NCBI RefSeq assembly: GCF_900103625.1
Contig: NZ_LT629700.1
Location: 1,612,001 to 1,676,000 of the forward strand
Source of the DNA: Corynebacterium mycetoides
GTDB taxonomy: Bacteria > Actinomycetota > Actinomycetes > Mycobacteriales > Mycobacteriaceae
Direction: 5' to 3'
DNA: 64,000 nucleotides
Positions within the stretch are counted from its first letter, which is position 1. Every line of letters begins with the position of its first letter. A model generated the notes under the pieces. That model had not been told where the DNA came from and made no database searches. It was given only the letters and a program-made list of their open reading frames with translations. A program made the position numbers and the translations under genes. Below are positions 33,114-34,530 of the stretch, in pieces.

Positions 33114-34530
33114 ATTGCCGACAGTTCTAGAGGGGATTGTCCAGGGGCGTTTTCGTCACCTTGACGAAATTAGGGCGCGGCTGGCGCACGTCGATCTCGA
33201 AGCGCTACCCATCTCCGAGCGGTCTCTCTACGACTCGCTTGCCCGGGAGGGCACCCAGTTCATCATGGAGTGCAAGTCGTCCTCGCCCTCGCTCGGGATG
33301 ATCCGGGAGCACTACGAGCCGGGCGAGATCGCGTCCGTGTACTCCCGCTACGCCGCCGGCATCTCCGTTCTGTGCGAGCCCGACAAGTTCGGGGGAGACT
33401 ACGACCACCTGGCCACCGTCGCTTCCGTCACGCACCTCCCCGTGCTGTGCAAGGACTTCATCGTGGACGACATCCAGGTGTACGCCGCGCGCTATTTCGG
33501 GGCGGATGCGATCCTGCTCATGCTGAGCGTGCTTGACGATGCCACCTACACGCGGCTGTCCGACCTCGCCGGGTCCTTGGGTATGGACGTGCTGACCGAG
33601 GTGATCGACGAGGAGGAAGCCCGCCGTGCCGGCCGCCTCGGGGCGCGCATCTTCGGTGTGAACCACCGCAACCTCCACGACTTGTCCATCGACCTCGACC
33701 GCTCAGCGCGCCTCGCCCCTCTGGCCCCCGAGGGCGCGCTCATCGTCTCTGAATCGGGCATCCGCGACGTCGCCACGGTGCGTCGCCTCGGCGGGCACTC
33801 CGACGGCTTCTTGGTCGGCTCACAACTCACCAGCCAGCCCGATATTGACCTCGCGGCCCGCTCACTCGTGTACGGCACCAACAAGGTGTGCGGCCTCACC
33901 ACACGCGGAGCGGCGCAGGCGGCCCGCGCCGCCGGCGCCGTGTACGGCGGGCTCATCTTCGACGAGGCGTCGCCGCGCCATGTTTCACGTGAAACATCCG
34001 CCGACATCATGGCGCACGAACCCCACCTGGAGTACGTCGCAGTATCCCGCCGGACGACCGGATGGGACGAACTCGTGCGCGACGGGTTCCACGCCGTCCA
34101 GGTCCACGCCCCCTTCCAGGGATCCGTCGAGGCGGAGATCGCCCTGGTCAACTACGTCCGCGACCAGGTGCGCGCCGCGGCAGGCGACGGCATAGAGGTG
34201 TGGCGCGCGGTGTCCATGACCACCGCCGAGGGTCCCCAGGTGGCCACCGCGTTGCTGGGCGTCGCCGACAAGCTGGTTCTCGACGCCGCCGACGGCGGCT
34301 CAGGGACGAGCTTCGACTGGGACCTCGTCCCCGCGGAGGTCAAAGACCACGCGCTACTGGCGGGCGGGATCGGCCCCGACAACGTCGCCGACGCCCTCCG
34401 GGTCGGATGCCTCGGCGTCGACCTCAACTCCGGCGTCGAGTACCCCGCGGACGCGGGGGAGTGGGCCGGCCGCAAGGACGCCGCCGCCCTGCGCCGCGCA
34501 TACACCACAATCCGCAACTACCACGACTGA
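33106..34530 (+). CDS. trpC: Bifunctional indole-3-glycerol-phosphate synthase / phosphoribosylanthranilate isomerase
   Basis: A 474-residue fusion. The TrpC half (about 1-260) has IMECKSSSPSLGMIR, LCKDFIVDDIQVYAARYFGAD and VNHRNLHDLSIDL. The TrpF half (about 265-474) begins NKVCGLTTRGAAQAA with its catalytic Cys and has the catalytic Asp in LVLDAADGGSG. It performs two consecutive steps, isomerisation then ring closure, in that order of pathway though encoded C then F. Codons for residues 292-297 (H-V-S-R-E-T) contain a perfect parS site. GTG start overlaps trpD. Confidence 0.95.
   Translation: MTKLPTVLEGIVQGRFRHLDEIRARLAHVDLEALPISERSLYDSLAREGTQFIMECKSSSPSLGMIREHYEPGEIASVYSRYAAGISVLCEPDKFGGDYDHLATVASVTHLPVLCKDFIVDDIQVYAARYFGADAILLMLSVLDDATYTRLSDLAGSLGMDVLTEVIDEEEARRAGRLGARIFGVNHRNLHDLSIDLDRSARLAPLAPEGALIVSESGIRDVATVRRLGGHSDGFLVGSQLTSQPDIDLAARSLVYGTNKVCGLTTRGAAQAARAAGAVYGGLIFDEASPRHVSRETSADIMAHEPHLEYVAVSRRTTGWDELVRDGFHAVQVHAPFQGSVEAEIALVNYVRDQVRAAAGDGIEVWRAVSMTTAEGPQVATALLGVADKLVLDAADGGSGTSFDWDLVPAEVKDHALLAGGIGPDNVADALRVGCLGVDLNSGVEYPADAGEWAGRKDAAALRRAYTTIRNYHD
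33981..33996. promoter_or_regulatory. parS inside trpCF, perfect
   Basis: TGTTTCACGTGAAACA lies in frame within the TrpF domain, encoding V-S-R-E-T just after SPRH. It is 24 kb from dnaA. Confidence 0.93.

Follow-up and report, generated by a model that had tools for sequence, protein, structure and literature searches.

The closest described relative of the site discussed here is parS1 of Corynebacterium glutamicum. According to the available passages of PMC7083940, C. glutamicum carries ten parS sites within 35 kb, at 73 kb from oriC, and ParB is enriched by ChIP at all ten; parS1 is the furthest from oriC and the sole site in a coding sequence, that of trpCF. A strain with parS1 alone grows like the wild type and folds its chromosome with minor differences, this one site being sufficient for segregation, and the loss of all ten results in 29% DNA-free mini-cells (PMC7083940). 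The passages of that paper on parS1 hold nothing on codon conservation.

For repABC replicons, authors have hypothesized positive selection of parS even within coding sequences; these are, however, RepB systems of plasmids and chromids, and the main text, as available, uses neither "synonymous" nor "codon" (PMC9040568). Chromosomal parS sites in general, which are mainly TGTTNCACGTGAAACA in the passages available from the review PMC7022226, have sequence, palindrome, and clustering in the parAB region in common with the site described below. Unlike them, the trpCF site is read within a metabolic enzyme, and the protein follows the site across the genus.

A literature search, with most subscription journals outside its reach, found no report of a codon-locked parS. 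Please note that a ParB site within trpCF is already published (PMC7083940, available passages); the genus-wide test of codon conservation is the new part.

The Site and Its Surroundings

The window is a stretch of 64,000 nucleotides from Corynebacterium mycetoides. When searched with TGTTTCACGTGAAACA, it gives a match without mismatch at 33981-33996 (+), an exact 16-bp palindrome agreeing with the chromosomal consensus (PMC7022226, available passages), of which 33982-33995 form the strictly conserved core. The carrier is trpCF (ORF 33106-34530, +; 474 aa), with IGPS and PRAI domains and the TrpCF 7ETX as its closest solved structure. The codons overlapping parS, CAT GTT TCA CGT GAA ACA at 33979-33996 (+), encode H292-V-S-R-E-T297 and lie within the PRAI (TrpF) domain (residues 259-446), the in-frame reading being S-P-R-H-V-S-R-E-T. 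An earlier note on this DNA had placed a parS in the TrpF half of trpCF, read as V-S-R-E-T after SPRH, and the exact 16-mer bears this out. Around trpCF, ORFs resemble trpE, trpG, trpD, trpB, and trpA, putative names that were assigned by eye. At the same place 7ETX, which we take to be C. glutamicum TrpCF, reads SPRNVSRET.

Five parS matches at up to three mismatches are present in the window against 0.06 expected, and 0 of 100 shuffles reached five, which excludes chance. The whole genome (2,266,370 bases) has just five sites at up to two mismatches, every one of them in the window, with starts at 25700, 26897, 33981, 38049, and 39393. The first (25700-25715, +) is apparently located between divergent genes, with starts placed by eye and longer ORFs on both strands overlapping it. 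The second (26897-26912, +) lies between an ABC-ATPase ORF named by eye (end at 26873) and an SDF-family transporter gene (end at 26944), and the fourth (38049-38064, +), with one mismatch at an outer base, follows an SBF-like transporter gene (end at 38040). The fifth (39393-39408, −) falls at the very beginning (5′) of an AzlC-family gene, where translation from the putative start would read M-G-V-S-R-E-T. This gene start is a second dual-coding candidate; in one locus of the genus (L227), M-V-S-R-E-T precedes a similar protein.

As is usual for chromosomal parS, the sites cluster in the region of parAB and a putative oriC: the five span 13.7 kb, and parAB lies 13 kb from the nearest of them. 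The genome also encodes a cognate ParB, as a ParABS system requires; the parB ORF (52669-53697, −) matches TIGR00180 with 203.7 bits, above the cut-off, and parA (53700-54695, −) was named by eye from its sequence. C. mycetoides has five sites versus ten in C. glutamicum (PMC7083940, available passages), with two of the five located beyond trpCF from parAB and another overlapping the AzlC gene start. The 16-mer in trpCF is a real parS and the counterpart of C. glutamicum parS1, with which it shares the gene and a 16-bp, Bacillus subtilis-like sequence (PMC7083940). By analogy, we infer that ParB probably binds the trpCF site in C. mycetoides.

Genomes and Scoring

The genus set comprises 242 genomes, one per species. 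trpCF was located in 185 of them (150 places from a first search and 35 genomes with a nearer query); the remaining 57, among which drafts may miss genes, gave no match better than E 2e-42, the level of the TrpC half, and G168 gave none at all. The scored set consists of 180 trpCF genes, namely the 150 and 30 of the further 35. The last five stand outside the 180, four with the core within trpCF (G154, G078, G160, and G161) and one without it (G191). Synonymous changes were counted per column on a tree that FastTree built from the 150 genes with the motif columns removed. Scored columns are the 223 in which at least 85% of genes have one residue, and 218 of these are clear of VSRET.

Codon Conservation Over the Site

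The 14-bp core GTTTCACGTGAAAC is kept in frame in 140 of the 150 genes and in 25 of the 30 further genes, that is, in 165 of 180. It is present in all 165 scored genes that read VSRET. The earlier note had expected synonymous positions in the site to be invariant across the genus, unlike those of flanking codons, and had named synonymous breaks of the palindrome in close relatives as the observation that would refute it. The expectation held, with GTT TCA CGT in 167 of 168 scored V-S-R genes, and such breaks were looked for and numbered zero among the VSRET genes of the 180 scored. The lone exception (G029) has GTG TCT CGT, reads VSRDQ, and has already lost the site. The same 14-mer is found in 241 of the 242 genomes of the genus, and a reversed-pattern control in none.

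On the tree, synonymous changes at V, S, R, and E number 4, 0, 0, and 2, which are ranks 1-4 (fewest) among the 223 columns; in the 218 columns clear of VSRET the median is 37.5 and the minimum 9. The few changes at V and E (GTG, GTC, and GAG) fall in genes without the site. This lock ends at the parS footprint, the preceding S, P, and R having 56, 39, and 13 changes and the T at the last base 37, so the suppression of synonymous changes covers the site but spares its neighbours, as in a dual-coding sequence. Within the gene, the locked codons are minority choices (GTT 0.12, TCA 0.07, CGT 0.15, and GAA 0.30). Recent shared ancestry was considered as the cause of the conservation and rejected, because, on that tree, the neighbouring scored columns have between 13 and 56 changes each.

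The gene holds its own control, a Y-V-A-V-S-R-R-T motif 20 codons downstream, whose V-S-R-R-T occupies 34042-34056 (+) and has no parS in the window. Here V-S-R is present in 135 of 150 rows and is written with 45 codon triplets, versus a single triplet in the 142 rows with V-S-R at parS. The identical residues are unlocked, in the same gene, outside parS.

The outer bases behave differently from one another. T directly precedes the core in 138 of 140 genes; the 16th base, the third of the Thr codon, is the sole freely varying one (ACA 73, ACC 42, ACG 20, and ACT 5 of 140), although ACA makes up 52% at this Thr versus 8% elsewhere in the gene. For a symmetric site, 138/140 for T1 versus 73/140 for A16 is uneven, and we count this against our best explanation. 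In 149 other sites from 41 clusters, T..A is found at 79.

Loss, Movement, and Variation of the Site

Fifteen of the 180 scored genes are without the exact core. Three are single-residue cases (G145, VSRGT; G187, VSREM; and G166, VSHET), and 12 have an altered stretch (G103, G139, G008, G114, G165, G011, G097, G029, G113, G192, G044, and G109). Residues at the stretch vary in site-less genes, examples being VDAGT, VTPEQ, and ITAEK, and in thirteen genes S-P-R itself is altered yet the core is kept. parS in trpCF is dispensable, not essential, because parS cores are still found elsewhere in 56 of the 57 genomes that gave no TrpCF match; the exception, G189, is 53% complete.

In G166, a change of CGT to CAT turns R to H, giving the protein VSHET. 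In this genome, GTTTCACATGAAAC stands at trpCF and is repeated at two further sites of the cluster; there are also one GTTTCACGTGAAAC and one GTTTCACGTGGAAC, the latter within the TrpC half of the same trpCF, and ParB is present. Only exact matches are telling here, as at up to two mismatches the reversed-pattern control gives 20 and 27 matches and the pattern 16 and 15. With GTTTCACATGAAAC at three cluster places (L202), parS may have shifted in this one species.

Two trpCF genes are broken with the core intact. That of G161 has stops and a shifted stretch, and that of G160 has a deletion and a frame change just before the motif, with S-P-R gone. These are sister draft genomes and make one supporting case, which is weak alone, as the chance of 14 unchanged bases at ~87% local identity is ~0.14.

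The downstream V-S-R has turned into parS in 3 of 180 genes. In G040 and G054 a second parS lies exactly 60 bp on, the control VSRRT there now reading VSRET; in G044 the downstream motif holds the only parS of the gene, and the usual place reads SPRQVTVQQ. Elsewhere, G011, G165, G097, G029, and G113, five genomes that all lack the inner site, have a parS within 150 bp of the trpCF stop. Over 92 flanked loci, such a 3′-end parS accompanies 5 of 14 lost inner sites versus 10 of 78 kept ones (Fisher p = 0.048, uncorrected for relatedness; G044, because of its second site, is placed with the kept loci, and 7 of the 10 share one position). Compensation for inner-site loss at the 3′ end of trpCF is only suggested by these numbers. 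Four more genomes (G008, G114, G103, and G139) have a parS ~3.58 kb from the trpCF start, near the expected end of trpA, a place that site-bearing genomes use too. Counted from the trpCF start, loci L193-L232 have a second frequent parS position at about +3.5 to +3.6 kb, close to the expected 3′ end of trpA, which this window lacks as a parS position.

By parsimony, gain and loss take nine changes and the root is ambiguous; G044 is the deepest branch (support 0.63), and the number of losses is uncertain. No sister-genus TrpCF fusion carrying the site was found among the matches listed from a family-wide set of 201 genomes (31 genera); alignments among the matches listed outside the genus do not extend beyond residues 2-308, in essence the TrpC half. 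An origin of the trp operon by lateral transfer from enterics has been proposed.

DNA or Protein Leading

We consider it very probable that the 16-mer is a working parS in trpCF and that selection on this site freezes the codons and sets V-S-R-E-T. ParB would load at the 16-mer, inside trpCF and within the single parS cluster of the genome; selection for the ParB site would freeze the codons and, with them, the peptide. TrpF would tolerate the stretch after the conserved S-P-R, the enzyme following the DNA.

An improbable alternative is that the site is kept because ParB loading in the operon tunes trp expression. The earlier note had suggested that ParB spreading over the trp operon might affect its expression. 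In Pseudomonas aeruginosa, according to a review, PA0011 and PA0013 were repressed by ParB at two intergenic sites (parS3 and parS4), and a slight surplus of ParB silenced the majority of genes around the cluster; the other genes of the region showed no change in cells deficient in parB or in parS (PMC7022226, available passages). The text of PMC7083940, as far as available, is without the word "tryptophan", names trpCF once, for position, and yielded no expression data. Moreover, the site survives in the two broken trpCF genes.

The idea that the protein came first, with TrpF needing V-S-R-E-T and the parS match following from the protein sequence, we find hardly credible, and we rejected it on the codon data and the outside TrpCF set. 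The earlier note had held that TrpF proteins commonly read S-P-R-x-V-S-x-E, coinciding with parS codon for codon. The peptide does partly suit the enzyme: among the best 120 TrpCF/TrpF proteins of a single search that had a distant TrpCF (P0161) as its query, an unbalanced outside set of one lineage's relatives, S-P-R is found in 110, V in 66, the next S in 47, and E, the commonest residue at its place, in 59. However, x-V-S-x-E as a whole occurs in just 11 of these 120, R at the R place in one, and V-S-R or VSRET in none. The TrpCF 1PII, presumably that of Escherichia coli, reads SPRCVNVEQ. A need of the protein would not predict a single codon set in 167 of 168 V-S-R rows, the stretch is altered in 12 of 180 genes (with G029 still V-S-R), and the broken genes retain the site.

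Because VSRET is absent from the 120 outside proteins and residues change on loss of the site, the protein motif appears to be the product of parS and not its cause. The earlier interpretation is supported as to a codon freeze across the genus and not supported as to its direction.

Codons might also be held fixed by a different element, either in the DNA (for a factor that binds CACGTG) or in the RNA (a structure of the mRNA); CACGTG is a common recognition core, and sequence data reveal conservation, not the binder. Such an element is extremely unlikely nonetheless, as the conserved block stops at the parS footprint, the 14-mer is genus-wide and its reversed-pattern control absent, the trpCF copy of G166 has the same variant as other cluster copies, and ParB gives a ChIP signal on the trpCF site in C. 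glutamicum (PMC7083940, available passages).

With parS leading, these comparisons are strong new evidence, drawn from sequence, that parS would impose five residues on an enzyme across a genus. We advance more tentatively, and put just short of an even chance, the wider reading that, throughout the depth of the genus, an enzyme has had its sequence dictated by a chromosomal centromere site unrelated to it, and that selection favours a parS within trpCF or next to it, not at one codon; the site would have moved between the two V-S-R places, stood at the 3′ end where the inner site was lost, altered the protein when parS changed, and outlived the enzyme. The value of the case lies in its being clean and countable: a non-coding function would set protein sequence, and this can be judged by natural losses and shifts, by broken genes, and by a control motif that the gene itself contains. 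It is important to remember that VSRET is then probably an imprint of parS, and that taking it for a feature of TrpF would be a mistake.

Unusual parS Arrays in Relatives

Beside the trp operon of G109, whose trpCF is without parS, are 45 exact parS cores (L246, 3323-12724), arranged in blocks of 20 and 25 sites of ~2.9 and 3.5 kb. All but two (43 of 45) lie outside ORFs of at least 150 aa, and the array is AT-richer than its flanks. From its sequence, it appears centromere-like, resembling a regional centromere. G087 has 18 parS cores on three contigs (C4, C7, and C34), one of which carries 13. Genomes of the genus other than these two have 0 to 12 parS cores.
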